53,821 nucleotides of DNA. It comes from a virus. Each line of letters starts with the position of its first letter. Within the stretch, counting starts at the first letter, position 1. The notes below the pieces were generated by a model. That model ran no database searches and had not been told where the DNA came from. It saw only the letters and a program-made list of their open reading frames with translations. The DNA is taken from positions 1 to 53,821 of IMG/VR virus record IMGVR_UViG_3300038713_000166. One strand, given 5' to 3'. Of the stretch, positions 1,024 to 45,815 are shown piece by piece. Made by a program: the position numbers and the translations under genes.

Positions 1024-2527
1024 AAGTGGTAATGGCAATGGCGATACTGGTCCTGGAGAATTTTCTGATACTGATGCTCTTGGAGGTTTTAGTGACAGCA
1101 ACGTGGATGACAGTTCTAGTGATAGTGGCACATCCTTTGGTGTAAGTTTAGGTCCTGGGCAAGGTTCTGTTTCTGCTACTGGAAGCACAGCACAAGATCA
1201 ATCCATTGGTTTTTCTGACGGAAAAGGTGGTCCTGGTGATAACTTTTCTGCGTTTGGTGGAATAACGGACTCAGCAGGAAATCCAGTTGGTAAGGAAGCA
1301 CAATCACCTTCTGAAGTTGCTGCTGCTATGGATGCCATAAGCGTTGATCAAGCATTAAATGATGCAGTCGCTTCATCACCTGTTGCGGGTGTAAATCAAG
1401 GAATAACTCCTGCGGGTATTTCACCTACATTTTCACCAGATGTTTTTGATCCTGCAGTTGATGTTGATAAAAGCGGTAAAACTGCACCATCGGCCATTGA
1501 ACAAGCTGCAATGGATGTACCAGGACTTGATGCGTTTGGTCCCGTTGCTCCAGGTTTTTCACCAGTAGGTATTACACCATCAGTTACTGTAGAAGCTTTA
1601 CCTTCAATTACTCAGAGTAAGGGTATTCAAGCGGCTTTAAGTAATCTTGATAAAGCAAGAGACAAAGCAGCGGGGATGGGAAGTCCAAAGGGCATAGATT
1701 TTGGTGTGACTGCACCAGTTGATCCAGATGCAATAGCTGCCGCAGGTATGCCTGGTACTGCAGCTAACATTGGAACAACAATATCAGCAATTGATCCGAC
1801 AACCATGGCTCCACAACTATCAGACACGATTGCGGGCAAAGCAGGAATAACTGCGGGAGTTTCACCCGCCCCACCTGGTTTTGAGGAAAAAGTTGGTAAG
1901 GACTTTGATCCTAGTAAGATGGCACAAATGGAAGCTATTTATGGCAAATTTGATCCTGTTTCTGGGTCTTATCCAACCACTTTACCTGGTCTCTTTGGTA
2001 TAGTTGAAGATAAAACTAAAGATGCATTAGCGACATCTATTGCTCTAGGAAAAAACGTAACTCCCATGGAAGCGATGTTTGGATACACTGCTCCTAATAT
2101 GGCAAAGGACAAAGAAACAATTGAAGAGTTTAATCAAAGAACAAAAAACACTTTCTCACCAGATCAAATTGTAACTGATACACAAGGTGTTGTCATAGGA
2201 CTAAAAGATAAGTCAGGTAATCTAGTTACTGGCATGGATCCGAGTGCCCAGGCACAAGCAAGTGAAGAAGGTAGGACTGAAGAGGAGATGAGAGAGAAAC
2301 CAAAATCACCTACAGATCCGTGTCCCGAGGGTTATCAACTTATTGATGGTAAATGCACACCTACTGAACCAGTTGTAACAGACACAGGGTTTGTTGTATT
2401 TCCTGCGGGAAGGACTCCTCCTTTTAGGAGAGGACCTTTTACTCCTACGACAGTAGCAAGTAATCCTGGTATAAGAGGCTTGAATCCAATAACATTCAAC
2501 ATTCCGCAAAATCCATTTAAAAGATAA
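1016..2527 (+). CDS. Low-complexity Gly/Ser/Asp/Pro-rich protein, possible virion protein
   Basis: This 503-residue protein begins with a Gly/Ser/Asp-rich region (about 1-110), continues with Pro/Ala/Gly-rich repeats of the form 'G-I-T-P/S-P', and has a short Cys motif near residue 435 (CPEGYQLIDGKC), common in structural proteins of marine phages. The C-terminus is basic and rich in Pro and Asn. The start overlaps the stop of the acyltransferase homologue, and its stop overlaps the terminase start (TAATG). Similar proteins are usually unannotated. Being translationally coupled to a HlyC homologue, it is the obvious candidate partner or substrate, but that is inference; only a few lysines lie in its N-terminal half. 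Confidence 0.5.
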   Translation: MGESGNGNGDTGPGEFSDTDALGGFSDSNVDDSSSDSGTSFGVSLGPGQGSVSATGSTAQDQSIGFSDGKGGPGDNFSAFGGITDSAGNPVGKEAQSPSEVAAAMDAISVDQALNDAVASSPVAGVNQGITPAGISPTFSPDVFDPAVDVDKSGKTAPSAIEQAAMDVPGLDAFGPVAPGFSPVGITPSVTVEALPSITQSKGIQAALSNLDKARDKAAGMGSPKGIDFGVTAPVDPDAIAAAGMPGTAANIGTTISAIDPTTMAPQLSDTIAGKAGITAGVSPAPPGFEEKVGKDFDPSKMAQMEAIYGKFDPVSGSYPTTLPGLFGIVEDKTKDALATSIALGKNVTPMEAMFGYTAPNMAKDKETIEEFNQRTKNTFSPDQIVTDTQGVVIGLKDKSGNLVTGMDPSAQAQASEEGRTEEEMREKPKSPTDPCPEGYQLIDGKCTPTEPVVTDTGFVVFPAGRTPPFRRGPFTPTTVASNPGIRGLNPITFNIPQNPFKR

Positions 2528-3987
2528 TGCGATACGACACACTTCCAGACGAGGCGTTAAAAGAATTTTTGATGCTCAAGGAAGCTGAAGCACGACTAAT
2601 TCTTCGTGAAAAAGCACAGAATAACTTCATGCCTTTTGTTCATCATGTTTATGAGAACTTTATTGAGGGTCGTCATCATCTTGAGATAGCAGAAAAACTT
2701 GAGAAGGTGGCAACTGGCGAGATTACCAGACTAATTGTTAACATGCCACCGAGACACTCAAAGTCGGAACTTGCATCTTATTTAATGCCTGCGTGGTTCT
2801 TGGGCCGTAATCCTAAATTAAAAATCATTCAAGCCACGCACAATACTGAACTTGCAGTGCGATTTGGACGTAAGGTAAGGGACTTGATAGATTCTGAGCA
2901 ATATGGACATATATTTCCAGACACGGACTTGAAAGCAGACAGTAAGGCGGCAGGTCGTTGGGAGACAAGTGCGGGCGGAGAATATTTTGCTGCGGGTGTG
3001 GGTGCTGCGGTCACGGGTCGTGGTGCAGACTTATTTATTATTGACGATCCACACTCGGAACAAGACGCAATGTCCGAGGGCAGATTGGAAGAAGCATATG
3101 AATGGTACACCTCTGGACCACGGCAAAGACTACAACCTGGCGGTAAGATTATTGTTGTGATGACGAGATGGGGTTTGAGAGACTTAACTGGTCGATTAAT
3201 TAAGGCGCAAGGCAGTGATGTTCTATCAGATCAGTGGGAAGTTGTTGAATTTCCTGCAATTTTACCATCTGAGAACCCATTATGGCCAGAATTTTGGAAA
3301 AAAGACGATTTATTAAAGGTAAAAGCGTCTTTGCCCGTACAAAAATGGGGTGCACAATGGCAACAACAGCCAACTGCCGAAGAAGGGGCGATTGTAAAGA
3401 AAGAATGGTGGAGAATTTGGAAAAAAGAGGACATTCCAGAGGTTGATTACATAATTCAGAGCTACGATACCGCATTTTCTAAGAAAGAAAGTGCCGATTA
3501 TAGTGCAATAACGACATGGGGTGTGTTTAAAAGCGAAGAAACTGGTGCCGATAACATAATTTTGATGGATGCATCGAGAGGTAGATGGAATTTTCCAGAA
3601 TTAAAGGAAAAAGCGTTAGAGGAAAACGAATATTGGCAACCAGACATGATGATTGTTGAGGCAAAAGCGTCTGGATTGCCCTTGACGGATGAGTTAAGAC
3701 GAGCGGGCATACCAATTATGAACTATACACCATCGAAGGGTCGTGATAAGGTAACGAGGATGCACACAGTTGCACCATTATTTGAAGCGGGTATGGTTTG
3801 GGCACCCGAAAAGCATTTTGCGGATGAAGTTATTGATGAATGCATGGCTTTTCCTAATGGTGAGCATGATGATTATGTTGACAGTATGACTATGGCTTTG
3901 ATAAGATTCAGACAAGGTGGGTTTATATCACTGAATGGTGAAGAAGACGATACGGATTACTACAGACCTAAAAGGGAGTACTACTAA
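2527..3987 (+). CDS. terL: Terminase large subunit
   Basis: This 486-residue ATPase-nuclease packages DNA into the prohead. The Walker A-like motif PPRHSKS is at about 74-80, and Walker B LFIIDD with catalytic-type acidic residues is at 169-174. The C-terminal RNase H-like nuclease shows the first Asp in SYDTAFSKKESADYSA (about residue 315), a middle acidic VEAKASG, and HDDYVDSM near the end. Length is normal for the family. ATG 2527 overlaps the preceding stop, so translation is coupled. The small subunit lies far away at 49800-50321, on the other side of the circle junction. Confidence 0.95.
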   Translation: MRYDTLPDEALKEFLMLKEAEARLILREKAQNNFMPFVHHVYENFIEGRHHLEIAEKLEKVATGEITRLIVNMPPRHSKSELASYLMPAWFLGRNPKLKIIQATHNTELAVRFGRKVRDLIDSEQYGHIFPDTDLKADSKAAGRWETSAGGEYFAAGVGAAVTGRGADLFIIDDPHSEQDAMSEGRLEEAYEWYTSGPRQRLQPGGKIIVVMTRWGLRDLTGRLIKAQGSDVLSDQWEVVEFPAILPSENPLWPEFWKKDDLLKVKASLPVQKWGAQWQQQPTAEEGAIVKKEWWRIWKKEDIPEVDYIIQSYDTAFSKKESADYSAITTWGVFKSEETGADNIILMDASRGRWNFPELKEKALEENEYWQPDMMIVEAKASGLPLTDELRRAGIPIMNYTPSKGRDKVTRMHTVAPLFEAGMVWAPEKHFADEVIDECMAFPNGEHDDYVDSMTMALIRFRQGGFISLNGEEDDTDYYRPKREYY

Positions 3988-4448
3988 TGACAAAATCAGC
4001 AACCAGAAAAAAACAAAAAGAAGTTGCAGAGTTAAAACGCAAAGCTAAAGCTAAAGAAAAATTAACTAAATCTGGTCCACCTTCAAAAAAAGAATTGGTC
4101 GATAAAGCAGCCAATCTAATGTCTAAAAGAGAAACTATGAGAACTGAAGGAGCGAATAAGCAATTTGGTGAAAGGGTAGCAAAAAGATTGAGAGAGTACG
4201 ATTTGTCCTCAAAAGCAACAAGGGACATTGGAAGAATGTTGGATAAAAGAATTAAAAATATTGATATGGGGGATCTTCTTACAAATGTATCAGAGCCTTT
4301 ACGAAAAAGACAAAAATTAATAAGAGAGTTAAAAAAAGAGGGAGCAGCTAAACAAGTGCCTGCCATGATGAAAAAAGGTGGTGAGGTTACATCTGAATAT
4401 CGTGGTGGTGGAATAGTAAATCTTGGTAATTATAAGGGCCAATTCTAA
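3987..4448 (+). CDS. Basic protein with shared C-terminal NYKGQF motif
   Basis: This 153-residue, Lys/Arg-rich, probably helical protein has no family I recognise. Its last residues, GGGIVNLGNYKGQF, match the ends of the next three or four gene products. The stop overlaps the next start (TAATG), and the codons of the YKG motif (AAGGG) sit where a ribosome-binding site for the next gene is expected. Position between terminase and portal suggests a minor virion or packaging-related role, unproven. Confidence 0.6.
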   Translation: MTKSATRKKQKEVAELKRKAKAKEKLTKSGPPSKKELVDKAANLMSKRETMRTEGANKQFGERVAKRLREYDLSSKATRDIGRMLDKRIKNIDMGDLLTNVSEPLRKRQKLIRELKKEGAAKQVPAMMKKGGEVTSEYRGGGIVNLGNYKGQF

Positions 4449-4675
4449 TGTCAAAAGATAAAGTAACGAGAATAAGAAAAGATAGAACTGGTCCAGCAAA
4501 GACAGGACAATTTAAGAATCTAGTCAACGCAGCCAAAGCTGGACAGATTAGTATGGTTGAGGCTCAAAAAGCAATTAGAAAACTAGTACAAGCAAAAAAA
4601 GGTGGCGGTAAGGTTCAGGCTGAGTTCAGAATGGGTGGTAAAGTAGACATTAGTAATTTTAAAGGACAGTTTTAA
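4448..4675 (+). CDS. Small basic protein ending in SNFKGQF
   Basis: The product has 75 residues, rich in Lys, Gly and Ala. It ends in GGKVDISNFKGQF, nearly the same as the tail of the following protein. Start and stop overlap both neighbours by one base (TAATG), so four genes are tightly coupled. No known domain is visible. Confidence 0.6.
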   Translation: MSKDKVTRIRKDRTGPAKTGQFKNLVNAAKAGQISMVEAQKAIRKLVQAKKGGGKVQAEFRMGGKVDISNFKGQF

Positions 4676-5097
4676 TGAGTATTTATAGTGATAAACAACA
4701 ATCACGTGTTGCTGTTAATCCTAAAACTGGAGAATCAAAAGTATTTAAAAGCACTGGTGTAGATGCAAAAGGTAAACATTTCTTTACAAGTATGGATAAT
4801 GCAAAGATACGTAATTTCATAACTGGAGAAAAACCAACTGCTAAAACTGGATTACCTGTTGGTAGAACTTCATCAGGAGAAATGGGTGCTTTAAATCCAC
4901 GAACATTCGGACCTCCTATAAAAATTGGTGGTCCAAATTTACAAAGTTTGGATCAAGTACAAGAAATACAAGAACGAATGTTAATAGATAAAAACAGAAT
5001 CAAAAAAGAAATGTTTGATAAAATGAAAAAAAGAGGTCCAAAAGAATTTAGAAATGGTGGACGAGTTAACATCAGTAATTTTAAAGGACAGTTTTGA
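4675..5097 (+). CDS. Hypothetical protein ending in SNFKGQF
   Basis: This 140-residue protein is basic with a Gly/Pro-rich centre and a helical C-terminal third, ending in GGRVNISNFKGQF. The DNA of the last codons (AAAGGA) serves as a ribosome-binding site for the tiny gene at 5097, whose ATG overlaps the TGA stop. No family recognised. Confidence 0.6.
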   Translation: MSIYSDKQQSRVAVNPKTGESKVFKSTGVDAKGKHFFTSMDNAKIRNFITGEKPTAKTGLPVGRTSSGEMGALNPRTFGPPIKIGGPNLQSLDQVQEIQERMLIDKNRIKKEMFDKMKKRGPKEFRNGGRVNISNFKGQF

Positions 5098-5210
5098 TGA
5101 ATGTTTCACGTGAAACATTAAAGAAGAAAAAGCCAAAGGGCAAACTGGTCGTTAATAGATTTTCCAAGATCCTCGCACCAGGGAAAAAACGAACAACGAG
5201 AATTACATGA
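5097..5210 (+). CDS. Tiny basic 37-residue protein carrying a parS site at its 5' end
   Basis: ATG 5097 overlaps the preceding TGA stop, and the gene stops at 5208-5210, overlapping the next ATG (5207). AAAGGA about 9 bases upstream supports initiation. The product starts MNVSRET and continues Lys/Arg-rich. The NVSRET codons form a perfect parS palindrome (5100-5119). The gene may exist largely to carry that DNA element, or it may simply be a short basic virion peptide. Too short to assign. Confidence 0.5.
   Translation: MNVSRETLKKKKPKGKLVVNRFSKILAPGKKRTTRIT
5100..5119. other. parS: Perfect parS-type centromere site 1
   Basis: The palindrome AATGTTTCACGTGAAACATT contains the full 16-base bacterial parS consensus TGTTTCACGTGAAACA (5102-5117), the site where chromosomal ParB loads as a CTP-dependent clamp. 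Two more exact copies occur at 12373-12388 and 12829-12844. No ParA or ParB gene is visible here, so host ParB would be the binder. Confidence 0.8.
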
Positions 5211-5629
5211 GTGAGTTAGAATTCAAAAAAACGGGCAAAGGCTTAACAATAAAAGATAAAACAACAGGTAAACCTTTTGGTGCTATTGTTCCTAAAGCCA
5301 ATGTTGATAAACTAGGTAATAAATTTGAACTAAGAGTGGCTGCTGGAGTGCCAAAATCAATAAGAGAAGAATTACATAAAGAAAGAAAAGAAAAAAAACA
5401 AATAACAGCAGGACAAGCAAAACTTTCAGAGAGATTTAGTAAAGATAAAAGTAAAGTTAGTAAAGTTCATACAAAGACCATGTCAGATGCAAAAAAAATG
5501 GCATTGAAAATTTCAAAAGTTGGTGGGGGAGGTGATTTTCCCATCAAAATTGAACAAGGACCAGATTTAGTAAAAGATAAAAAGAAATTTAGTAGCGGTG
5601 GAATAGTTAATTTTAAAGGAATATTTTGA
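5207..5629 (+). CDS. Hypothetical basic protein ending in VNFKGIF
   Basis: This 140-residue, Lys-rich protein ends in SSGGIVNFKGIF, a variant of the tail seen on the products of 3987-5097. The codons of FKG (AAAGGA) lie 8 bases before the portal start and can act as its ribosome-binding site. ATG 5207 overlaps the preceding stop (ATGA). No domain recognised. Confidence 0.6.
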   Translation: MSELEFKKTGKGLTIKDKTTGKPFGAIVPKANVDKLGNKFELRVAAGVPKSIREELHKERKEKKQITAGQAKLSERFSKDKSKVSKVHTKTMSDAKKMALKISKVGGGGDFPIKIEQGPDLVKDKKKFSSGGIVNFKGIF

Positions 5630-8067
5630 TGGCAACACCCCCTCGTCCCATAGGTCCGTTAGTAGACTCAGGCATAGATGCACCACAAGGTATGAATGTA
5701 GATATTCCGCAACCAGAAACATTTGAGGGTGGCGCAGAAGTTTTGCAAAGTCCAGATGGCGGTGCAATGATTCAAGCCTTGATGGGCGAAGAGGGTATTG
5801 AAGTACAGACTGAGCAATATGATCACAATGCAAACTTAGCAGAAGTGTTGGACGAAAAAATTCTTGATGAATTATCCTCCGAGCTACGTGGCCAGTTTGA
5901 AGAGGACGTTGAGTCTAGATCAGATTGGAAAGATGGTTATGTAAAGGGTCTAGATCTACTTGGTATTATGTACGAAGAAAGAACTGAGCCTTTTGATGGT
6001 GCAAGTGGTGTAACACATCCTTTGATTGCAGAATCAGTAACCCAGTTCCAAGCACAGTCTTATAAAGAACTTTTACCATCTGGTGGTCCAGTTAAGATAA
6101 ATATTATGGGAGATCGAACCTTGGAGCGTGAAGCACAAGCCACAAGAGTTCGTGAATTTATGAACTATCAGATTACGGAGGTCATGCAAGATTATGATAC
6201 CGACACTGACCAAATGCTTTTCTATCTCCCATTGGCGGGTTCTACTTTCAAGAAAATATACTTCGATCCAACTAGGGGTTCTGCTGTTTCGAAGTTCGTG
6301 CCTGCTGAAGATCTTGTTGTTCCGTATCAAGCTTCGGACATTAACACAGTCTCTAGAGTCACACATGTACTTAAGATGGATGAAAATGAAATCCGCAAAA
6401 TGCAAGTGGCTGGCATTTACAGAGATGTGGAAATCTCAGCATCAGATACAGATCAAGATGTCGTCCAAGAAAAGAAAGACGAAATAGAAGGAGCAAGTAA
6501 AGGATACTCGGATGAGACATATTCTGTACTTGAAATGCATACTAATTTAGACCTTGAGGGTTTTGAGGATCTTGGTGCAGATGGTCAGCCAACTGGAATC
6601 AAGTTACCTTACATTGTAACCTTGGACCAAGGATCTGGAGAAATTTTATCTATCACACGTAACTATGATCAAGGTGATAATTTAAAGAAAAAGAGACAGT
6701 ATTTTGTACATTATAAGTTCCTACCAGGATTGGGATTTTATGGATTTGGCCTAATACATATGATTGGTGGTCTTGGTAGGGCAGCAACAAGTATATTAAG
6801 ACAGTTAATCGATGCGGGAACTTTATCTAACCTACCCGCAGGTTTTAAGGCTAGAGGCATAAGAATTAGAAATGACGATGAACCTTTATCGCCTGGTGAG
6901 TTCCGAGACATTGATGCACCAGGTGGTGATCTTAGGAATTCTATAGTTCCCCTCCCCTTTAAGGAACCATCTGGTACGCTTTCAAATCTACTTGCTGCGT
7001 TGATTGAAGCGGGTAGACGATTTGTATCTATAGCTGATCAAAAGATTGGTGAGTCTAGTGGCGATATGCCAGTTGGATCTACAGTTGCAATGTTAGAACG
7101 TGGCATGAAAGTCATGTCAGCCATACACAAAAGATTACATTACGCACAGAAAACAGAGTTTAGATTACTTGCTAGAATTTTTGCAGAGAACTTACCACCA
7201 CAATATCCATATGAGGTAGCGGGTGGTCAACAACAAGTTTTTGCAGCAGATTTTGATGGAAGGGTAGATGTACTACCAGTATCAGATCCTAATATATTTT
7301 CTATGGCACAGAGGGTTGCGTTAGCACAAACACAACTACAGATTGCACAAAGCAATCCAGATATACACAACTTGCCTGCTGCATATAGACGTTTATATCA
7401 AGCACTTGAAGTTCAGAACATTGATGAAATCTTGCCTCCCAAGAAAGAACCAATGCCTATGGACCCAAGTATAGAGAATGCCAGGGCGTTACAGGGTGAG
7501 ATTGTGGTTGCCTTTCCTCAGCAAAACCACGATCAACATATGGCTAACCACATCCTTTTCATGAAAACCCCGATCGTAGCCACTTCTCCTAACGTCATGG
7601 CTATTCTTTATGCACACATTCTTGAGCACATTTCACAAAAGGCAAGTGCAATTGCACAGAGTGAAGCACAACAAGCAGTTCAACTACAATTACTTGCACA
7701 ACAAGGTGCAATAGATCCTGCAAACGTACCACCACAAATTACACCAGAGATTGTGGAAAGTCGTGTTGCAGAATTAGAAGCTCAGTTTACTGCCGATTTC
7801 TTACAACAAATGGCACCACCAGAGGGTCAAGAAGATCCATTGGTGCAAATAAGAAAGCAAGAATTAGCTATTAGAGCAGCAGAGGCAGAAAGATCTGCAC
7901 AAGTTGACCAACAAAAGTTAGGACTTGAGGCACAGAAACTTCAACAAAGAGCAGCAACAGATGCAGCGAGATTAGAAACGCAAGAAGAAATTGCTGATGA
8001 GCGTAACCTTGTTAATCGTGAAAGAATTCAAACACAGAGAGACATTGCTGCTGCCAGACGAGGGTAG
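5629..8067 (+). CDS. Portal protein
   Basis: This 812-residue protein is the head vertex portal that docks terminase and the tail. It follows terL closely, has the length and composition of P22-type portals, with conserved-looking core (about residues 85-560), and ends in a Gln/Ala/Glu-rich coiled-coil tail (about 640-812) that would form the portal barrel. ATG 5629 overlaps the preceding TGA and has AAAGGA upstream. No catalytic motif is expected. Confidence 0.85.
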   Translation: MATPPRPIGPLVDSGIDAPQGMNVDIPQPETFEGGAEVLQSPDGGAMIQALMGEEGIEVQTEQYDHNANLAEVLDEKILDELSSELRGQFEEDVESRSDWKDGYVKGLDLLGIMYEERTEPFDGASGVTHPLIAESVTQFQAQSYKELLPSGGPVKINIMGDRTLEREAQATRVREFMNYQITEVMQDYDTDTDQMLFYLPLAGSTFKKIYFDPTRGSAVSKFVPAEDLVVPYQASDINTVSRVTHVLKMDENEIRKMQVAGIYRDVEISASDTDQDVVQEKKDEIEGASKGYSDETYSVLEMHTNLDLEGFEDLGADGQPTGIKLPYIVTLDQGSGEILSITRNYDQGDNLKKKRQYFVHYKFLPGLGFYGFGLIHMIGGLGRAATSILRQLIDAGTLSNLPAGFKARGIRIRNDDEPLSPGEFRDIDAPGGDLRNSIVPLPFKEPSGTLSNLLAALIEAGRRFVSIADQKIGESSGDMPVGSTVAMLERGMKVMSAIHKRLHYAQKTEFRLLARIFAENLPPQYPYEVAGGQQQVFAADFDGRVDVLPVSDPNIFSMAQRVALAQTQLQIAQSNPDIHNLPAAYRRLYQALEVQNIDEILPPKKEPMPMDPSIENARALQGEIVVAFPQQNHDQHMANHILFMKTPIVATSPNVMAILYAHILEHISQKASAIAQSEAQQAVQLQLLAQQGAIDPANVPPQITPEIVESRVAELEAQFTADFLQQMAPPEGQEDPLVQIRKQELAIRAAEAERSAQVDQQKLGLEAQKLQQRAATDAARLETQEEIADERNLVNRERIQTQRDIAAARRG

Positions 8068-8070
8068 GCC

Positions 8071-8832
8071 ATGGATCCAGCAACCATATCATTAGCGGTA
8101 GGAGTAGCCTCTAAAGCATTTGATGCAATAAAAAAAGGATTTGCGGTAGGTCGAGATATTGAACAAATGTCTGGAGATATTGGTCGTTGGATGGGAGCAG
8201 TGAGTGATGTTGATAACGCAGAAAAGCAAGCGAAAAATCCTCCGTTGTTTGGTAAATTGTTTAAGGCTGGTTCTATCGAGGAAGCCGCTCTTGCCGCTTA
8301 TGCAGCCAAGAAGAAACTTGAGGAACAAAGGTACGAACTCAAGATGTTTTTAAACTTTACTTATGGTCCACAAGCTTACGATGATTTACTTAAAATGGAA
8401 GGGCAAATTAGAAAACAACGTCAAGAGACAGTTTACAAGCAACAACAACTACGAAGACAAATAGGTGAAGCTATCACTTGGTTAATAGTTGCAGCTATTA
8501 TAGGTGGTTTTTGTGTGTTAGTTGCAGGTATTTGGATGAAGAAGGCACGTGCGGATGGCAAAATGTATAACGCACCAAAGGATTACACGTATAAACAAAA
8601 AGTTTGGCAAGGTAAAATAACAGAAAAAAAGTATACAACTTGTAGGTTAAAAAAAAGAGTAACGTCAAAATATACTAAAAAAAAAGCCTGCATTTATGAA
8701 GGTGGTAATAAAACTTATACAATGATGATTGAAGTGTGGTGTCCAAAAAAGTATAAATGTGTTTATGATCCAAATGGCACTGAACCCGATATCGACAAAG
8801 TGATGGAAAGTTTGAGGAGTATAAAAGATTGA
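8071..8832 (+). CDS. Membrane-anchored virion-associated protein
   Basis: This 253-residue protein has an amphipathic, coiled-coil-prone N-terminal two thirds, one clear membrane helix at about 134-155, and a basic C-terminal domain with four or five Cys that would lie outside the cytoplasm. The architecture recurs downstream of portals in marine phages, without known function. It overlaps the next gene by 4 bases. Confidence 0.55.
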   Translation: MDPATISLAVGVASKAFDAIKKGFAVGRDIEQMSGDIGRWMGAVSDVDNAEKQAKNPPLFGKLFKAGSIEEAALAAYAAKKKLEEQRYELKMFLNFTYGPQAYDDLLKMEGQIRKQRQETVYKQQQLRRQIGEAITWLIVAAIIGGFCVLVAGIWMKKARADGKMYNAPKDYTYKQKVWQGKITEKKYTTCRLKKRVTSKYTKKKACIYEGGNKTYTMMIEVWCPKKYKCVYDPNGTEPDIDKVMESLRSIKD

Positions 8833-9035
8833 TAACTGCATTTATGTTATATTGTTGTATGCAACCTAGTCAAATGAATGAGGCTAAAATTTATTTTAGA
8901 TCTGTTAACGATTGCACTTATTATGCAAAAAAACTAAGTGGACAAGTATTCATGTCAGAAAATGGAGATCAAACATATGAGTGTGTTTGTAAATTAGTAG
9001 CACAAGTAAATCCAAATAAGGTGGAGGTCTACTAA
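8829..9035 (+). CDS. Small exported-type Cys-containing protein
   Basis: This 68-residue product starts with a hydrophobic segment (MITAFMLYCC) and then a small domain with Cys near residues 29, 51 and 53, suggesting export and disulfides. The TTG at 8829 overlaps the previous stop and has GAGGAG 9 bases upstream; ATG 8844 is an alternative. A similar layout is seen at 44040-44240. Function unknown, perhaps lysis-related given the neighbouring holin-like gene. Confidence 0.5.
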   Translation: MITAFMLYCCMQPSQMNEAKIYFRSVNDCTYYAKKLSGQVFMSENGDQTYECVCKLVAQVNPNKVEVY

Positions 9036-9355
9036 TGGTGCAGAAAAAATTACAACAAGAATCAATATATGCAGAATATGATGAAGATGGTGATGGTATC
9101 GTTTCTGACGAAGAATTGAGTCATGTAGCAGAGATAAAGAAGTTAGAGCATGATTTACGTAAACAAAGGGCACAAAGAAGAATGGCTACTGCCAGTTTGG
9201 TTGCAATGGGTACTTTTACTCTTGCGATGTTCTTTGTTGATCTCGATCGAGTTAAGGCTTTGGCCGATATTAGTAATCTTTTCTACATTACTGGGGGTGG
9301 CATTGTCGCTGCCTACATGGGTGCATCTGCTTTTATGAATAGAGGAGGAAAATAA
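9035..9355 (+). CDS. EF-hand protein with two membrane helices, holin candidate
   Basis: This 106-residue protein has a canonical EF-hand loop at residues 16-27 (DEDGDGIVSDEE: acidic at 1, 3, 5, Gly at 6, Ser at 9, Glu at 12), a charged helix, then hydrophobic segments at about 51-70 and 80-99. A Ca2+-binding loop ahead of a two-helix membrane hairpin next to a holin-family gene suggests a membrane lysis protein, possibly responsive to calcium. The EF-hand is directly visible; the function is inference. Confidence 0.6.
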   Translation: MVQKKLQQESIYAEYDEDGDGIVSDEELSHVAEIKKLEHDLRKQRAQRRMATASLVAMGTFTLAMFFVDLDRVKALADISNLFYITGGGIVAAYMGASAFMNRGGK

Positions 9356-9750
9356 TGTTACAAGCACTGATAGGTCCAGTTACTGGATTACTTGATAAAT
9401 TTATTCCAGACGCAGATCAAAAGGCGAAACTCGCCCACGAGATAGCCACGATGTCTGAAAAACATGCGCAGGAGGCTCTGCTTGCTCAGTTAGAGATTAA
9501 TAAAGCAGAGGCAGCGAGTGGCTCTATATTTAAGGGCGGCTGGCGCCCAGCAGTTGGGTGGGTCTGTGCGATCGCTTTTGCCTATCACTTTATCGTAAAA
9601 GATCTAATTATATTTGGCGCAAGTTTTGCTGGTGCAGAATTACCAGAGCTGCCTGATTTTGATATGGGTACACTTTTAACTGTTCTCGGTGGCATGCTTG
9701 GCATCGGAGGACTCAGAACATATGAAAAGCAAAAAGGTTTAACAAAATGA
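9355..9750 (+). CDS. Holin-like protein of the 3TM (gene-transfer-agent) type
   Basis: The 131-residue sequence has a helical Ala/Glu-rich N-terminal region (about 18-50), the GGWRPAVGW motif (about 60-69) that introduces the first membrane helix, and a second hydrophobic segment at about 103-120 (LLTVLGGMLGIGGLRTYEK). This pattern is characteristic of the GTA_holin_3TM family, which permeabilises the inner membrane for endolysin release. The endolysin (33466-33912) is far downstream in the same operon. Confidence 0.75.
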   Translation: MLQALIGPVTGLLDKFIPDADQKAKLAHEIATMSEKHAQEALLAQLEINKAEAASGSIFKGGWRPAVGWVCAIAFAYHFIVKDLIIFGASFAGAELPELPDFDMGTLLTVLGGMLGIGGLRTYEKQKGLTK

Positions 9751-9836
9751 TACATTTAAGTAAATGTCCAGAGTGTGGATTTGAGTTACCAGAGGGAGAT
9801 TTTTGTCCCATTTGTAAAGTAAGGAGAAAAAAATGA
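9747..9836 (+). CDS. Tiny 29-residue zinc-ribbon protein
   Basis: ATG 9747 overlaps the stop of the holin-like gene. The product contains CPECG followed after about 9 residues by CPIC, a textbook four-Cys zinc ribbon, and a basic tail. The very short length and perfect Cys spacing argue for a real gene. It may bind nucleic acid or another protein; no function is known. Confidence 0.55.
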   Translation: MIHLSKCPECGFELPEGDFCPICKVRRKK

Positions 9837-9934
9837 TTTGGTTTTACTTGTCACTTTTTAAATTCTTTAATAAGATAGGTAATTATTACTATAAGCTTCA
9901 CGTTAAGGAGGTTAGACGTGCCCAAGGACGATGA
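9833..9934 (+). CDS. Tiny 33-residue hydrophobic peptide
   Basis: ATG 9833 overlaps the preceding TGA (ATGA) and has AAGGAG 5-9 bases upstream. The product is aromatic and hydrophobic at the N-terminus (MIWFYLSLFKFF) with a basic tail, so it may associate with the membrane. It overlaps the next gene out of frame by 17 bases. Weak case. Confidence 0.35.
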   Translation: MIWFYLSLFKFFNKIGNYYYKLHVKEVRRAQGR

Positions 9935-10079
9935 AATATGTTTTATACACAAAATTGCTTATACTAAAACTATCACCGAAGAACCTATTCCAACTGTAGG
10001 CATGACTAAATTTATAACTTACAAATGTCCAATGTGCGTTATGCCCATAGAGGAGACAGTTTATGCCACTGACAAGTAA
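9918..10079 (+). CDS. Small protein with CPMC motif
   Basis: GTG 9918 follows AAGGAGGTTAGAC, an excellent ribosome-binding site, giving a 53-residue acidic-basic mixed product. It contains a single Cys at about residue 8 and CPMC near residue 38, which could bind metal together with His11. It overlaps the next gene by 17 bases. Function unknown. Confidence 0.45.
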   Translation: MPKDDEICFIHKIAYTKTITEEPIPTVGMTKFITYKCPMCVMPIEETVYATDK

Positions 10080-10236
10080 AGGCAAAAAAATTATGAAAGC
10101 CATGAAAAAGCAGTATGGCAAAAAGGCAGAAGAAGTATTTTATGCTAGTAAAAACAAAGGAGTCATAAAAGGTGTTGACAAAAAACGGAAAACAAAAAGT
10201 AAAAAAAGTAGCAAAAATGCTAAAAAAAGCGTCTAA
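10063..10236 (+). CDS. Small Lys-rich protein common in marine phages
   Basis: This 57-residue product starts MPLTSKGKKIMKAMKKQYG and has the motif VFYASKNKG, a pattern I recognise from uncharacterised proteins of marine phages. About 40 percent of residues are basic, so it could bind DNA or RNA. AGGAG-like sequence (GAGGAGA) lies upstream of ATG 10063. It overlaps the next gene in another frame. Confidence 0.6.
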   Translation: MPLTSKGKKIMKAMKKQYGKKAEEVFYASKNKGVIKGVDKKRKTKSKKSSKNAKKSV

Positions 10237-10306
10237 TGCTCATGCTAAACAATCAAAAATTTTGTCAAAGTTGGTAAAGAATGGCAAGAAAAAGAAAAGA
10301 TCCTAA
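10172..10306 (+). CDS. Small Lys-rich protein, overlapping frame
   Basis: Starting at GTG 10172 (or TTG 10175) within the 3' part of the previous gene, this frame encodes 44 residues of pattern LTKNGKQKVKKVAKMLKKAS...LSKLVKNGKKK. I recognise similar short basic proteins beside the preceding one in marine phages. GGAG at 10159-10162 (AAAGGAGTC) lies upstream. It overlaps both neighbours, so the 10.1-10.3 kb stretch is coded in two frames. Confidence 0.5.
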   Translation: MLTKNGKQKVKKVAKMLKKASNAHAKQSKILSKLVKNGKKKKRS

Positions 10307-10574
10307 AGTCGGCACTGGTAAAAAACCAAAAGGAACTGGTAGGAGGTTATATACAGATGAAAATCCTAAAGACACTGTCAGAATTAAATATGCGACTGTG
10401 GCAGATGCTAGGGCAACTGCTGCAAAAGTTAAAAGAATTAGCAAACCCTATGCTCGTAAAATTCAAATCCTCACAGTCATGGAGCAAAGAGCCAAAGTTG
10501 CAGGAAAGAATGAACAAGCTAGAATCGCTAAGAGAGCCAAAGAAACCCTCAAAAAAAGGAGAGAAAAAAAATGA
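10281..10574 (+). CDS. Basic hypothetical protein
   Basis: This 97-residue, Lys/Arg-rich protein contains the motif GTGRRLYTDENPKDTVRIKYA and a helical C-terminal half, a type found in many marine phage genomes without a function. Composition suggests nucleic-acid binding. Its 3' two thirds are overlapped out of frame by the next gene. Confidence 0.6.
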   Translation: MARKRKDPKVGTGKKPKGTGRRLYTDENPKDTVRIKYATVADARATAAKVKRISKPYARKIQILTVMEQRAKVAGKNEQARIAKRAKETLKKRREKK

Positions 10575-11052
10575 AAAACAAAAAAGGCCTCGTGGGCGAC
10601 CAAGAAAAATCGCTAATGACTTGATTGAAAACAAATTATTTTCAAGACAATGGATATATGATAATATCTTTGAATTAAACGACCAAGAAAAAATTGATGT
10701 GGCAGCACCCTTTGGTGAAATTACTGGTGCTGATTTTGCGAAACTTAGAAAAATGCAAACTGGTGGTGCTACAGATATGGAAAAAGATCCACGTTATAAA
10801 ATGTTAATGGATAAACTTGACAGTGCAAGGGACAAAGGCGATACAGATGCAATCAGAGAAATAGAATCTGATTTAGCCAAAGAATTTGGTGTTGGCATGA
10901 TGGGTGGTGGCTCCGTTGACGATAAAATGAAATATGGTGGTGGTGGAGACATCATGATCAAAACTGTTGAAATATCCATGAAAATACCAGAAAAGCAAAA
11001 AAGAGGAACTGGCGCAGCAATGTCTGGCACTAAGTTTAGTGGCACATATTAA
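10357..11052 (+). CDS. AT-hook-containing hypothetical protein
   Basis: The frame gives 231 residues from ATG 10357, which has AGGAGG 10 bases upstream, or 180 residues from ATG 10510 (AGGA upstream). The AT-hook RPRGRPRK at about residue 77 (of the long form) suggests minor-groove binding to AT-rich DNA. A helical middle part and a Gly/Met-rich stretch follow, ending MSGTKFSGTY. The first 218 bases overlap the previous gene in another frame; the later start would lessen that overlap. Function unknown. Confidence 0.55.
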   Translation: MKILKTLSELNMRLWQMLGQLLQKLKELANPMLVKFKSSQSWSKEPKLQERMNKLESLREPKKPSKKGEKKNEKQKRPRGRPRKIANDLIENKLFSRQWIYDNIFELNDQEKIDVAAPFGEITGADFAKLRKMQTGGATDMEKDPRYKMLMDKLDSARDKGDTDAIREIESDLAKEFGVGMMGGGSVDDKMKYGGGGDIMIKTVEISMKIPEKQKRGTGAAMSGTKFSGTY

Positions 11053-11722
11053 TGAAACAAAAAATGATGGTAGTAAAGGTGGGGATGTGGCTGAGTTAGT
11101 TTGTAATCTCCCCTCTGTGGATGTTTATGTTCGTAAAGAATATTTAAGAGATAATGAAGATAGTCATGGTAAATTTGTAAAAGGTGTATGGGTTTCTGCC
11201 AAATCTATACCTGGTAGAGCTTTTTATTTTGAAACATTTTTACCAGAGTATGGTGCTTTATACGATAAGCTTCCCATTTCTGCATTTGTTTCAAGTCCAG
11301 AAACACCAAAACCAGATTTGAACTTACCTAACTTACAGTTTTGGAATTGTATGGATTATGGAGTCACTGCTATAACAAAACAATTTATAGGCTCAATGGA
11401 CTTTGAAATTCTTACGAGAGATCAAGGTGTTATGCACGGATCTTATATCTGTACATTAGATAATTATCATCCAGACTCAGATAACATTGACTATAGCACA
11501 AGCGAAACACCTGCAGAACATAAGTCATTTAATTTACTTGAACTTGATAATGGACAATATTGTTTGTATCCTAATAATAGAATGAGAGTATATGATAATT
11601 CACTTACTCCTAAAGAACCTAAGATGCCAGATTTCAAAGTAAGCACTGAATATTACCAAGTTGAAAACGGAAATGAGTATAGACTAGGTGATACAGATGA
11701 TTATTTTTGGAAAGAAAAATAA
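11039..11722 (+). CDS. Hypothetical protein, possible virion component
   Basis: The 227-residue acidic protein from GTG 11039 (alternative GTG 11087) appears to be mostly beta-structured, with many aromatic residues. I do not recognise a domain. Position in the late operon between basic genes and GroES suggests structural or assembly function. The next gene starts on its stop codon. Confidence 0.5.
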   Translation: MAHINETKNDGSKGGDVAELVCNLPSVDVYVRKEYLRDNEDSHGKFVKGVWVSAKSIPGRAFYFETFLPEYGALYDKLPISAFVSSPETPKPDLNLPNLQFWNCMDYGVTAITKQFIGSMDFEILTRDQGVMHGSYICTLDNYHPDSDNIDYSTSETPAEHKSFNLLELDNGQYCLYPNNRMRVYDNSLTPKEPKMPDFKVSTEYYQVENGNEYRLGDTDDYFWKEK

Positions 11723-11931
11723 TGGATATAGTTGACTTTTCACAAAAATTGTACAAAAGATTAAAAGAACGTGAAGACGACATCGTCTTGACGCTGACAA
11801 CTGGTGCTGTTTCTAATCATGAACAGTACAAGCAGCTAGTAGGTGAGTTACAAGGACTCTCATATACTAAAGATCAAATTAAGTCCTTGCTGGAAGGAAA
11901 AATAGATGACGAAGACATTATACGTACCTGA
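11722..11931 (+). CDS. Small acidic helical protein
   Basis: The product has 69 residues from ATG 11722, which overlaps the preceding TAA. It appears wholly helical (SQKLYKRLKEREDDIV; QYKQLVGELQGL) and acidic at the end. Small proteins of this kind precede the GroES-like gene in related phages, without known function. Confidence 0.55.
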   Translation: MDIVDFSQKLYKRLKEREDDIVLTLTTGAVSNHEQYKQLVGELQGLSYTKDQIKSLLEGKIDDEDIIRT

Positions 11932-12322
11932 GTATCTAAAAAATCAATTAGAAAAAAATAAACCCCAAACAGACGATTTAAAACTAAAAGAAAGACTCCC
12001 ACAACCAACTGGTTGGAGAATCTTAGTCATGCCTTACAAAGGGCGTGAAAAAACAGATGGTGGTATTCATTTGCCAGATGCAGTTAGAGATCGTGAAGCA
12101 TTAGCTACAGTTGTAGCCTATGTCCTTAAAGTTGGACCTTTAGCATATAAAGATCAAGACAAATTTGGAGATGGAGAACCTTGGTGTAAAGAAGGTGATT
12201 GGATTTGTATTGGTCGATATTCTGGATCAAGATTTAGAATAGAAGGCGGAGAGGTAAGAATTATCAACGATGACGAAGTCATAGCGACAATCGTTGACCC
12301 AGAAGACATTCAGCACATTTAA
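11906..12322 (+). CDS. GroES-like co-chaperonin
   Basis: The C-terminal ~100 residues of this 138-residue protein follow the GroES fold: PTGWRILVMPYKGREKTDGG-IHLPD with a mobile-loop-like segment, then LATVVAYVLKVGP, WCKEGDWICI and VRIINDDEVIATI. A phage co-chaperonin would cap host GroEL to fold a virion protein, as T4 gp31 does. It sits just before scaffold and capsid genes, the likely clients. It has a ~30-residue N-terminal extension compared with host GroES (~97 residues). No GroEL gene is present. Confidence 0.8.
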   Translation: MTKTLYVPEYLKNQLEKNKPQTDDLKLKERLPQPTGWRILVMPYKGREKTDGGIHLPDAVRDREALATVVAYVLKVGPLAYKDQDKFGDGEPWCKEGDWICIGRYSGSRFRIEGGEVRIINDDEVIATIVDPEDIQHI

Positions 12323-12331
12323 GGAGATATC

Positions 12332-13237
12332 ATGGCTACTATAGAAAAAAATGAAGTTAAACAAGAAGAAAATGTTTCACGTGAAACAACAGAGGATAAA
12401 CCAGTTGAAGTAGAATTACCTCTTGGTCTTGACGAAAAAGATAAGAAACCCGAGGAAGTCACTGAAACTAAAGAAGAAAAAAAAGAAGACGAAGTAACGG
12501 AATACAGTAAAAAGGTTCAAACAAGAATAAACCAAATTACTGATCGTTACAGAAAAGAACAAAGAGATAAAGAGGAAGCTGTACGTCTAGCTCAAACGTT
12601 AAAAGATCAAAATGAAAAACTTCAAACTCAAATATCAAATTTAGATAAAGGTTATATATCTGAGTACGGCACAAGGATTGAGTCTCAGCTTGCTTCTGCT
12701 TCTGACGCACTTAAAAAAGCATATGAAGTAAATGACACTGACGCAATAGTTAAAGCACAGCAAGCGATTGCTAAGGCAACCATTGAACAAGAAAGACATA
12801 GAATAGCCAAAGAAAGACAAGAGCAAAATGTTTCACGTGAAACATCTCAGCCTCAAACTATTCAACAACCACAACAACCCGTCCAACAAGAGCCAGATCC
12901 AAAGGCAAAAGCATGGGCAGAAAAGAACACTTGGTTTGGTGAAAATGAGGAAATGACCTATCTTGCTTTAGGCTTAGATAAAAAATTAGTACAAGAAGGA
13001 TTTGACTTAGGAAGTGATGAGTACTATTCTGAGTTAGATAAACGAATTAGGATAAGATTTCCTGAAGAGTTTAAACAAGAAACGAGTGGTGTTAACAGAG
13101 TCGCCCCTGCTGATAGCACCGCATCTCGCAGTAATTCAAAGGGACGCAGGACTGTGAAGTTGTCGCCATCACAAGTTGCTATGGCAAAAAGACTGAATGT
13201 TCCGCTAGAAGAATATGCTAAATATGTAAAAGAGTAG
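12332..13237 (+). CDS. Head scaffolding protein candidate carrying two parS sites
   Basis: This 301-residue, very acidic and Gln/Glu/Lys-rich protein has a long coiled coil at about 55-170 and a basic C-terminal end, the usual make-up of a scaffold located between co-chaperonin and capsid genes. The peptide NVSRET occurs twice (about residues 14-19 and 166-171), both encoded by the identical parS palindrome. AAGGAGAT lies 7 bases before ATG 12332. Scaffold function is inferred from composition and position. Confidence 0.65.
   Translation: MATIEKNEVKQEENVSRETTEDKPVEVELPLGLDEKDKKPEEVTETKEEKKEDEVTEYSKKVQTRINQITDRYRKEQRDKEEAVRLAQTLKDQNEKLQTQISNLDKGYISEYGTRIESQLASASDALKKAYEVNDTDAIVKAQQAIAKATIEQERHRIAKERQEQNVSRETSQPQTIQQPQQPVQQEPDPKAKAWAEKNTWFGENEEMTYLALGLDKKLVQEGFDLGSDEYYSELDKRIRIRFPEEFKQETSGVNRVAPADSTASRSNSKGRRTVKLSPSQVAMAKRLNVPLEEYAKYVKE
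12373..12388. other. parS: Perfect parS-type centromere site 2
   Basis: TGTTTCACGTGAAACA occurs exactly, inside the scaffold gene, encoding VSRET. It uses the same codons as the other two copies. It lies 456 bases from site 3 and about 7.3 kb from site 1. Confidence 0.8.
12828..12845. other. parS: Perfect parS-type centromere site 3
   Basis: ATGTTTCACGTGAAACAT, an 18-base palindrome holding the 16-base parS core at 12829-12844, again within the scaffold gene and in the same reading phase as sites 1 and 2. Confidence 0.8.
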
Positions 13238-14362: not shown

Positions 14363-15271
14363 ATGGCGATATCTAGAGCTCAACTAGCCAAAGAATTAGA
14401 GCCAGGGTTAAATGCTCTCTTTGGTATGGAATTCGCAAGGTATGAAAATCAACATGCGGAAATTTTTACAACTGAGTCTTCAGACAGATCATTTGAAGAA
14501 GAAGTAATGCTCTCAGGTTTTGGTGCAGCACCAGTGAAACAAGAGGGTTCTGGAGTATCATTTGATGATGCTAACGAATCATTCACTGCTCGTTACAACC
14601 ATGAGACAATTGCTTTGGCATTCTCAATCACTGAAGAAGCAGTTGAGGACAACTTGTATGACAGATTGTCTTCAAGATACACTCGTGCATTGGCAAGATC
14701 TATGGCGCACACAAAGCAAGTTAAGGCAGCTTCTGTTCTTAATAACGCTTTTGATAGCACAGTTACTGGTGGTGACGGAGTTGAATTATGTTCAACTGCA
14801 CACCCAATTATAACTGGTGGTACTTTTGCTAATGAGCCATCAACTGATGCAGACTTAAACGAAACATCACTTGAAGATGCTTTAATAAGCATTGCAGGTT
14901 TTGTTGACGAGAGAGGTCTTAAAATTGCATTAACTGGTAGAAAACTTGTTATACCACGTCAATTGCAATTTGTTGCAGAAAGACTAATGGCATCAAATCT
15001 AAGAACTGCAACAGCAGATAATGACATTAACGCTATTAGATCCACTGGCATGTTACCAGAGGGTTACACAGTTAATGACTTTTTAACTGATACTGATGCA
15101 TTCTTCATCTTAACAGATGCTCCAAGAGGGTTCATGCACTTCGAAAGAGTGCCATTAGCTACTCAAATGGAGGCAGATTTTGATACTGGCAACATGAGAT
15201 TTAAGGCCAGAGAAAGATACAGTTTTGGATTCTCTGATCCAAGATGTGTTTTCGGATCAAAAGGTGCATAA
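14363..15271 (+). CDS. Major capsid protein
   Basis: This 302-residue protein has the expected features of an HK97-fold major capsid protein of the Mu gpT-like type: N-terminal arm with ALFGMEFARYENQHAEIF, a central extended segment, SHP-like text STAHPIITGGTFAN (about 150-163), KLVIPRQLQFVAERL (about 195-209) and a C-terminal FDTGNMRFKARERYSFGFSDPR. AAGGAGG precedes the start with 7-8 bases spacing. It is followed by a strong terminator, allowing high expression from this segment. Confidence 0.85.
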   Translation: MAISRAQLAKELEPGLNALFGMEFARYENQHAEIFTTESSDRSFEEEVMLSGFGAAPVKQEGSGVSFDDANESFTARYNHETIALAFSITEEAVEDNLYDRLSSRYTRALARSMAHTKQVKAASVLNNAFDSTVTGGDGVELCSTAHPIITGGTFANEPSTDADLNETSLEDALISIAGFVDERGLKIALTGRKLVIPRQLQFVAERLMASNLRTATADNDINAIRSTGMLPEGYTVNDFLTDTDAFFILTDAPRGFMHFERVPLATQMEADFDTGNMRFKARERYSFGFSDPRCVFGSKGA

Positions 15272-44442: not shown

Positions 44443-45445
44443 TCATTGCCTCCTTTATTGATAATCCGATTTGCATTGCTATTTGTGGTACGATTGCATT
44501 ACCTAATCCTCTAAGTCTGTCCACCCTGGAGGGTATCCCATAAGCCACTCGACCCACATTGGGTTCAACGTCCCACCAACTTCTTGCTCGTTCTTGCGCT
44601 GATCCGTCTGTACTGCGGTTATTAAATTTACCATGTGATTCTTCTCTTGCAAGTTCTTCTCTGACCGAGGTCCTCGATTCCCGTCCCATGCATTTGGAGT
44701 TGGCCACATTCTTGTCTCCGCTACTTTTTGTCCCAATGTCGGTGATCTCGTCCCCTTTTGTACTGATGGTGGGACTATGTTTATCGAGTCCTTGTAATCC
44801 CTCGCTCTCGGTGTCGGCCAAAGAGCCATTGTCTTTTCGTCTACTTGTTCCCGAAGATTGCTCGGCTTGGCTCTGCCCTTGCGATGTCCCTCTTGAAGTT
44901 TCTTGGTTGCCTCTTCTGATCTTGGAGGCAAGTGATCCATCGTGTTCGGAGTTGCCCACAATCCAGAGTCGATCACGCTTGTGGGGTGCATTAAGGCTAC
45001 AAGCTGGTACAACAAACGTTTGTGTGGAGTAACCTTCACTTTCCATGTCGTGTAACACTTGGTCGAGACCCATGGCAATGTGACCATAAACATTCTCGAA
45101 AACACACCAAGTCGGGTGTTTTCTTTTGACAATCTCAAACACGAATCTCCAGATGTTTCTCTCATCTTCCTCGCCTCTTCGTTGTCCCGCAACGGAAAAT
45201 GGTTGGCACGGATATCCTGATGTGAGGATGTCGTGGTCGGGAATAGTTCGGGTTGATTCGGGTCGGTCATTTACTAACTCCTTTACGTCATTAAAGATCG
45301 GGATGTTCGGGAAATTTTTAGCCAGGACTTTCTGACAATACGGGTCAATCTCACAAAATGCAACGGGTTCTGAAAGTGCTGCCCAACGAAAACCGAGGGA
45401 AAATCCCCCGATCCCCGAACAGACATCAAAGTGCCTTAGCATCAT
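44417..45445 (-). CDS. DNA cytosine-5 methyltransferase
   Basis: The 342-residue enzyme has the C5-MTase motifs: I FDVCSGIGGFSLGF (residues 6-19), IV SGYPCQPFSVAG with nucleophile Cys80, VI ENV at 117-119, VIII LNAPHKRDRLWIVG, and X RLRGLGNAIVPQIA at the end. It transfers a methyl group from AdoMet to cytosine, probably protecting phage DNA. The target-recognition region (about 165-290) is Gly/Ser/Gln-rich and unusual; this stretch also encodes another protein in the +1 frame (44503-45270). No cognate nuclease gene is recognisable beside it. Confidence 0.9.
   Translation of the reverse strand: MMLRHFDVCSGIGGFSLGFRWAALSEPVAFCEIDPYCQKVLAKNFPNIPIFNDVKELVNDRPESTRTIPDHDILTSGYPCQPFSVAGQRRGEEDERNIWRFVFEIVKRKHPTWCVFENVYGHIAMGLDQVLHDMESEGYSTQTFVVPACSLNAPHKRDRLWIVGNSEHDGSLASKIRRGNQETSRGTSQGQSQAEQSSGTSRRKDNGSLADTESEGLQGLDKHSPTISTKGDEITDIGTKSSGDKNVANSKCMGRESRTSVREELAREESHGKFNNRSTDGSAQERARSWWDVEPNVGRVAYGIPSRVDRLRGLGNAIVPQIAMQIGLSIKEAMNDDYTKKD
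44503..45270 (-). CDS. W-x-T-P repeat protein encoded inside the methyltransferase gene
   Basis: This 255-residue frame lies wholly within the methyltransferase gene, shifted by one base. Its ATG is preceded by AAAGGAG with 7 bases spacing, a better site than that of the methyltransferase itself. The product has three repeats of form W(A/P)TPxxxxD at about residues 105, 151 and 189, and ends LNPMWVEWLMGYPPGWTDLE. I recognise this repeat and ending from an uncharacterised phage protein family usually associated with cytosine methyltransferase genes. Each repeat coincides with a repeat in the other frame (VGNSEHDG, LADTESEG, VANSKCMG). Function unknown. Confidence 0.65.
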   Translation of the reverse strand: MTDPNQPELFPTTTSSHQDIRANHFPLRDNEEARKMRETSGDSCLRLSKENTRLGVFSRMFMVTLPWVSTKCYTTWKVKVTPHKRLLYQLVALMHPTSVIDSGLWATPNTMDHLPPRSEEATKKLQEGHRKGRAKPSNLREQVDEKTMALWPTPRARDYKDSINIVPPSVQKGTRSPTLGQKVAETRMWPTPNAWDGNRGPRSEKNLQEKNHMVNLITAVQTDQRKNEQEVGGTLNPMWVEWLMGYPPGWTDLED

Positions 45446-45815
45446 TTTTTATTTTTCCAAATAAAAAAGGAATTATTTGTTCATCTTGTATTTCAAAACC
45501 AAATTCCTTGTTTATGTACAGTCGCACCTCTTGTAGTAAAACTCTTTGTGTTCTTATAAAACAAAATATTTTTTCTTTTGTTTCACTTGGAATTAAATTT
45601 TCAAAAGAAGTTTCTAAACAGTTTGCAATTGTTTGAATTGCTTTTTCATCAACTCTAAAACAAGACAATCCCTCTTTATTATCAAAGTTTTTATCTTCTA
45701 TTCTTCTTAAAGTCATATAAGGCAACTCAACCATTTTAGCAAATCCTCTTTGACTAAGACCTTTTTCTTCCCTTAACTCTCTAACTTTTTGACCATAAAT
45801 TTTATATCTCATCAC
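45426..45815 (-). CDS. XRE-family transcription regulator
   Basis: The 129-residue protein has an N-terminal Cro/CI-type helix-turn-helix (KVRELREEKGLSQRGFAKMVELPYMTLRRIED, about residues 10-41) and a helical C-terminal part. It overlaps the methyltransferase start by 20 bases and probably controls the methyltransferase or this accessory operon, as C-proteins do in restriction-modification loci. AGGAGG-like sequence precedes its ATG. Confidence 0.85.
   Translation of the reverse strand: MMRYKIYGQKVRELREEKGLSQRGFAKMVELPYMTLRRIEDKNFDNKEGLSCFRVDEKAIQTIANCLETSFENLIPSETKEKIFCFIRTQRVLLQEVRLYINKEFGFEIQDEQIIPFLFGKIKNDAKAL

Follow-up and report, generated by a model that had tools for sequence, protein, structure and literature searches.

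What are three exact copies of a bacterial centromere site doing in a phage genome? The question is raised by IMG/VR virus record IMGVR_UViG_3300038713_000166, a stretch of 53,821 nucleotides that was analysed whole and is called the window below. It contains three copies of the 16-bp palindrome TGTTTCACGTGAAACA, the chromosomal-type parS sequence whose core also occurs in SAR11 genomes, all within the packaging and head module. After binding parS, ParB forms a closed, CTP-dependent clamp that can slide onto the DNA alongside. Comparisons with related phages and with candidate hosts indicate that the palindromes are probably host-type parS sites, kept by selection at the level of DNA so that host ParB would load on the phage genome. 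The sequence comparisons give good support to selection at the DNA level for binding of ParB, but not to a benefit of the sites for the phage.

Three parS sites in one module

An earlier note, made from the sequence alone, had described three exact 16-mers with extended symmetry at two of them. A scan of the window recovered these copies (Table 1) and no others. The symmetry, read directly from the sequence, was confirmed as well: site 1 has a 20-bp dyad and site 3 an 18-bp one, and at site 2 the symmetry ends with the 16-mer. No further match is present in the window at up to 3 mismatches, where shuffled controls average 0.46 matches, and only 2e-5 exact copies are expected from base composition. 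The view that the sites are parS by sequence, beyond chance, is borne out. One site occurs between terL and the portal gene, as codons 3-7 of a 37-aa open reading frame (ORF) starting MNVSRETLKKKK. The other two are inside a scaffold-like gene. All three can be read as VSRET.

The same site in the likely host

The window phage, which looks lytic, is likely a relative of HTVC023P-type pelagiphages, with SAR11 as its likely host, as judged from protein comparisons. Phages of that type infect SAR11 and share homologous genes for TerL, capsid, PolA and GroES; matches to PolA and GroES are present in the window. Its large terminase subunit (TerL) is 61% identical to those of 023Pt_psg01 and DSL-LC04, 60% to that of HTVC027P and 56% to that of HTVC023P. 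The corresponding values for the capsid protein are 74% (HTVC023P), 69% (DSL-LC04 and 023Pt_psg01) and 68% (HTVC027P), which places HTVC027P and HTVC023P among the nearest named relatives. GC content is 36.2% in the window, 34.8-35.6% in the sequence fetched for the pelagiphages HTVC027P and HTVC023P, and 52% in that fetched for DSL-LC04.

Among eight SAR11 genomes, six have one site at no more than 1 mismatch and two have none. A draw of 118 SAR11-family genomes, whose completeness is not shown, contained exactly one GTTTCACGTGAAAC in 69 genomes, none in 49 and more than one in no genome. In the six SAR11 genomes that were read, an ORF of about 217-222 codons has the site close to its start, coding for VSRET; downstream come a ParA P-loop motif and then a ParB-like start motif. 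For one of the six, NCBIfam models above their cut-offs identified the site ORF as RsmG and the last gene as ParB, and a ParA-like gene lies between the two. Since the SAR11 site codes for VSRET too, the phage carries the host site in the host's own coding form. Because SAR11 genomes have the same site beside parA and parB, the reader of the phage sites would be host ParB. Capture of host ParB, as the earlier note proposed, is supported to this extent, by inference from the neighbourhood of the SAR11 site; this support does not include the benefits that the note suggested.

parS in viral DNA

The exact 16-mer was found in at least 120 loci of the viral collection, versus 1 locus for the reversed palindrome; the listed parS loci may include prophages, plasmids or host sequence with ParB of their own. 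A composition-matched 14-mer, counted on both strands, yielded 66 background loci, which corresponds to about 2 expected for a 16-bp palindrome. The parS 16-mer is over-represented in viral contigs.

Some of these loci belong to the TerL/portal family of the window. TerL, portal, scaffold or capsid proteins at least 45% identical to those of the window are encoded in 34 of the 120 listed parS loci and in none of the 66 background loci (Fisher p 6e-8). When any identity at E 1e-3 is counted, the numbers are 45 of 120 and 6 of 66. A TerL profile detected TerL in 37 of the 120 listed loci, and in 16 of these 37 a site precedes the estimated start of TerL by 82-194 nt. By comparison, 6 of the 66 background loci have TerL, with the 14-mer upstream of it in none. 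Both parS-selected sets together contain 30 sites at most 360 nt upstream of terL, spanning 9 TerL clusters at 80% identity, and further sites of the family lie between terL and the portal gene, like site 1 of the window. Four loci (L016, L043, L052 and L265) have 3-5 exact parS copies, all in the roughly 4 kb that precede a TerL only 28-29% identical to that of the window.

A conserved site before terL

Conservation can be followed best in the clade of L119, a parS-bearing locus whose TerL relatives were fetched by protein. This set comprises 80 loci; in 78 of them, terL is preceded by 150 nt or more. The 400 nt leading up to terL hold parS at no more than 2 mismatches in 69 of the 78, and an exact copy in 56. 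With 60 shuffled palindromes, an average of 0.03 loci matched at 2 mismatches in the same leaders, and none matched better. Site-bearing loci have their nearest copy 34-57 nt before terL, with a single exception at 255 nt. In 24 loci there is a second copy at a spacing of 23-25 bp, and each of the two variants is then represented once. Because the loci are related and 7 of 79 (L119 excluded) share an identical 300-nt segment with loci of the motif scan, the independent cases are fewer than those counted.

A non-redundant set of 27 loci, with flanks more than 12% different, has an average column conservation of 0.968 within the site, 0.449 in the left flank and 0.539 in the right flank. At dyad positions 5/12, the parS consensus allows T/C and A/G, with little freedom elsewhere. 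The sole strongly variable dyad pair in the 27 loci is this same pair 5/12 (T-A in 19, C-G in 5 and mixed in 3), so the tolerance is seen in the L119 clade, though not in the window. On the TerL tree, the clade underwent at least 9 changes of variant and at least 4 changes of presence. In these alignments, the site behaves like a protein-bound palindrome.

When records of the clade were searched whole, 11 of 12 had one or two sites and the other had none. One record, G132, has a terminator-like stem followed by a promoter-like match, two parS sites and terL. Both kinds of prediction are weak, with 2 promoter matches versus 0.8 in shuffles and 6 terminator matches versus 2.2. A site between a promoter-like match and terL in one clade is what might be expected if the palindrome served as operator for some unrelated regulator, of phage or host, and equalled parS by coincidence, and weak regulator matches do occur in the window, at 45426-45815. 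However, we consider this explanation highly improbable, in view of the 16-bp identity to host parS, the T-A/C-G variation at the very dyad pair that the parS consensus leaves open, and the occurrence of the same 16-mer in a Lactobacillus phage and in phi29-like contigs.

As a separate feature, many loci of the L119 clade have GGGGCCCC or GGGTCCC immediately ahead of the start of terL. In L668, the 8-mer occurs once, at 12536, which is about the frequency expected by chance.

Coding sites and their codons

Sites 2 and 3 of the window are within an ORF for which "scaffold" is a label from gene position and a helical structure model, with no family name behind it. The 14-mer was found inside ORFs homologous to it in 13 of 146 loci, always in the VSRET frame, down to 42% identity. 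It occurs at two recurrent positions, near the N-terminus or near residues 163-172. Eleven of the 13 loci were found via the motif, and the pairs L323/L269 and L169/L223 each represent one contig.

The earlier note had argued from the identical VSRET codons that selection acts on DNA. The competing explanation is that the VSRET peptide is itself selected, or that the matches arose by chance. We examined three sets that were not fetched by motif (153 scaffold or portal relatives, 66 background loci and 79 TerL relatives), using frames of at least 100 codons. VSRET occurs at 10 distinct places, of which 9 are spelled exactly GTTTCACGTGAAACA; the tenth, in a background locus, deviates in the last base only. 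TerL relatives account for six of the nine places, among which two pairs stem from near-identical loci. Within the motif-selected set of 120 listed loci, 4 of 84 VSRET readings are spelled otherwise. Selection on the peptide would account for VSRET at all three window sites, but not for this rarity of other spellings or for the sites before terL, outside coding sequence. Given this codon uniformity, the minute number of copies expected in the window and the single locus with the reversed palindrome, we rejected both peptide-level selection and chance, to which we assign practically no probability. The argument of the note for selection on DNA was upheld. The synonymous drift that would speak against it was not seen, since the codons of scaffold-gene sites are constant where a site is present.

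A structure model of the scaffold-like protein has a mean pLDDT of 73.5 and a pTM of 0.33. The pLDDT is below 50 over residues 1-48, a long helix is predicted at 136-171, and a low-confidence linker follows at 172-186. Site 3 codes for the final residues of this helix, just before the linker. As site 2 falls within and site 3 at the edge of segments modelled with low confidence, the VSRET peptide at these two sites probably matters little.

Gene content and the missing ParB

The record looks near-complete: its first 20 bases occur again at 53606 and its last 20 at 214, indicating a terminal repeat, about 0.2 kb long and inexact end to end. In addition to the features in Table 1, the products of the window include PolA, a UvrD-like helicase, a primase-like protein, a C5 methylase, a Mom-like protein and GroES. 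A match to the small terminase subunit at 49800-50321 is distant from TerL, towards the opposite end of the record. Three small neighbouring ORFs (4448-4675, 4675-5097 and 5207-5629) have near-identical C-terminal tails (GGKVDISNFKGQF, GGRVNISNFKGQF and GGIVNFKGIF).

Table 1. Positions of the parS sites and of neighbouring genes in the window
Feature	Position	Strand	Details
Terminase large subunit	2527-3987	+	phrog_38, E 2.5e-110
Micro-ORF carrying site 1	5097-5210	+	37 aa, MNVSRETLKKKKPKGKLVVNRFSKILAPGKKRTTRIT; between terL and portal
parS site 1	5102-5117		20-bp palindrome 5100-5119; codes VSRET in + strand micro-ORF
Portal protein	5632-8067	+	phrog_1216
Scaffold-like ORF with sites 2 and 3	12332-13237	+	301 aa, phrog_28737 (unknown function); after GroES, before capsid
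parS site 2	12373-12388		Residues 15-19 of scaffold-like protein, predicted disordered N-terminus
parS site 3	12829-12844		18-bp palindrome 12828-12845; residues 167-171 of scaffold-like protein
Major head protein	14363-15271	+	phrog_371; 74% identity to HTVC023P capsid

As the earlier note had supposed, no parB gene was found: six-frame translations of the window gave no match to PF02195 or TIGR00180, with positive controls, although a divergent ParB could escape both models. Beyond the window, 23 other records were searched in full for ParB_N, equally without a match. A ParABS system encoded by the phage itself, of the phage-plasmid type, was rejected as far as the PF02195 and TIGR00180 models reach. 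A temperate life by integration finds no support either: the window has no match to the tyrosine integrase model PF00589, for which controls were positive; serine integrases were not searched for.

Patchy occurrence among close relatives

Family-wide conservation was rejected for the window's own clade, in which the sites are patchy. This and several further observations weigh against the reading of the palindromes as selected host parS. Among 80 scaffold relatives GTTYCACGTGRAAC occurs in one, and the same holds for 80 portal relatives, which is no more than in the background (1 of 66); many of these relatives' loci are short fragments, and none of 200 shuffled palindromes occurs in the relatives or in the background loci. 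Among 80 relatives by the ORF at 8071-8832, 2 have a site; the terL-portal interval is held by 21 of the 80, 2 of them with site 1, and a scaffold homologue by 24, none of them with a scaffold site. Eight of 10 named relatives have no site at up to 2 mismatches, including HTVC023P, DSL-LC04 and both Caulobacter phages tested. DSL-LC04, whose listed host is gammaproteobacterial, is as close to the window phage (TerL 61%, capsid 69%) as the pelagiphages and has no site, and SAR11 is a likely host that is assigned from relatives. The L119 clade, the strongest for conservation, has 50% GC, and 9 of its 78 loci have no site. Codon invariance among close relatives is a weak test in the scaffold gene: it holds for 10 of 10 codons in the sites and for 124 of 226 conserved codons elsewhere, and the motif itself had brought in three of the four relatives compared. 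The sites of the window are intragenic, with none at a promoter, and ParB binding to them is a prediction.

Loss of sites in close relatives, which the earlier note had named as contrary evidence, is therefore partly observed, in the 2 of 21 and 0 of 24 relatives above. Drift of site 1 was not seen: four site-less loci checked hold no decayed remnant, their best matches having 4-5 mismatches. The micro-ORF with an exact site is kept in L669 (100% at ORF 8071-8832), L676 (91%) and L109. In L670 (98%), only the C-terminal end of the micro-ORF is present and the parS-bearing start is absent. Because of this patchy presence, the sites seem to move by module exchange.

HTVC027P, an isolate paired with the SAR11 strain HTCC1062, has a 14-bp parS core with one outer mismatch, which is located elsewhere than in the window, at about 16.4 kb (record position ~16413; L379:15916), in an unannotated ORF between gp31 and gp32. 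A promoter reading of this site was rejected, because gp31 and gp32 converge and the site is inside the ORF. By eye only, this ORF resembles a VRR-NUC-type nuclease. A report on the HTVC027P transcriptome describes odd timing of gp30, gp33 and gp34 (PMC12753301). These genes are within about 1.3 kb of the site, which we treat as coincidence only. Alcaligenes phage QDWS535 (L387, record OK172329, 47934-47949) has the C-G variant TGTTCCACGTGGAACA.

Precedents and possible uses

Use of host ParB by a phage is already known for phi29, and Meijer 2005 is said to be the original paper on phi29 and Spo0J. The likeness to the present case is that phi29 is a virulent phage with four parS sites, each with one mismatch, and no ParB_N match. 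It differs in being a protein-primed 19-kb phage of a spore former, and its sites are spread over 10.4-18.8 kb, in neither a terL leader nor a scaffold gene. In a passage of PMC9437464, entrapment of phi29 in spores is described as acting through Spo0J.

Three phi29-like contigs of 17.6-19.1 kb have 4 (L219/G154), 6 (L220/G155) and 5 (L238/G153) exact parS copies, and their records have no ParB_N match. They represent one lineage, with about 98% mutual identity in two genes. Their gp16-type ATPase (PF05894) is 26% and their DNA polymerase 34% identical to the phi29 translated record. Lactobacillus phage Bromius (L582) has three exact parS copies in a 10-kb stretch of small genes (99933-109957), again with no ParB_N match in its record. 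Both phi29 and Bromius were picked from 60 listed of 420 named-phage records matching a 30-mer, which related Lactobacillus phages also match.

The cases of phi29 and the phi29-like contigs recommend an explanation in which parS would tether phage DNA to ParA, SMC or the cell pole. In slowly growing or starved hosts, the tether would position or condense the phage DNA or see it handed on to daughter cells, with deferred lysis like that of phi29. The scattering of the window sites inside genes fits such loading better than use as operators. However, SAR11 is non-sporulating, and tethering alone leaves the recurrent place 34-57 nt before terL in the L119 clade unexplained. HTVC027P, called lytic in PMC12753301, is given a latent period of about 18 h there, which would suit tethering. 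Overall, we regard this explanation as possible but on the unlikely side.

Alternatively, the sites could be decoys: phage copies, with up to three sites each, would titrate ParB off the single host parS and stall segregation. This idea draws support from the finding of at most one exact 14-mer in each of the 118 SAR11-family genomes, and from SGI1, which, according to PMC10954446, destabilises IncC plasmids using parS-like sites. The likeness is that parS mimics of the element recruit the ParB of another replicon, that of the IncC parABS system (PMC10954446). The difference is that SGI1 is an integrative element directed against a plasmid, whereas here a lytic phage would be directed against a chromosome. 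A decoy needs no fixed place near terL, and the one or two sites, or none, in whole L119-clade records are few for this purpose. Use as a decoy is quite improbable overall, and scarcely less so if the sites are granted to be host-type parS.

The use that we tentatively prefer is regulation. Pseudomonas aeruginosa ParB near promoters can repress them (PMC5521831), and KorB of RK2, a member of the ParB family, represses promoters near to or far from its loading site (passage of PMC11790492). Here, by contrast, the reader would be host ParB on phage DNA, and repression is a proposal. During infection, host ParB would accumulate over the packaging and head module, in which all three parS sites lie. 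Clamps might damp the terminase and head region on the first phage copies; as these copies multiply, the clamps would be diluted and the late module would open in step with replication. Provided that the sites are host-type parS, modulation of terminase and head genes by host ParB is our best but tentative suggestion, and positioning or condensation is about as probable. Regulatory use rests on the related clades, because the sites of the window are inside genes and not at a promoter. A combined form, in which host ParB would act as a copy-number-sensing regulator of the terminase and head module and simultaneously be stripped from the host's single parS, is clearly unlikely.

Among the open-licence papers listed, judged by titles and abstract beginnings, none dealt with parS sites of the host type in a lytic phage, and phi29 appeared in one passage only. 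The words "parS" and "ParB" are absent from the main texts of PMC12753301, PMC9599517, PMC10504331 and PMC2784084. Phages that encode ParB themselves are described in a passage of PMC10286716.

Implications

As far as our searches reach, the placement of the sites, their conservation and their presence in a marine family are new. To our knowledge, use of host ParB by phages was known before only for phi29, and the sites described here would extend it to a widely sampled marine phage family. In one clade, that of L119, purifying selection on a parS site has been demonstrated from sequence alignments. If host ParB does load on these phage genomes, chromosome segregation would be a common phage target, and the ParB clamp may serve as a regulator within a lytic cycle.
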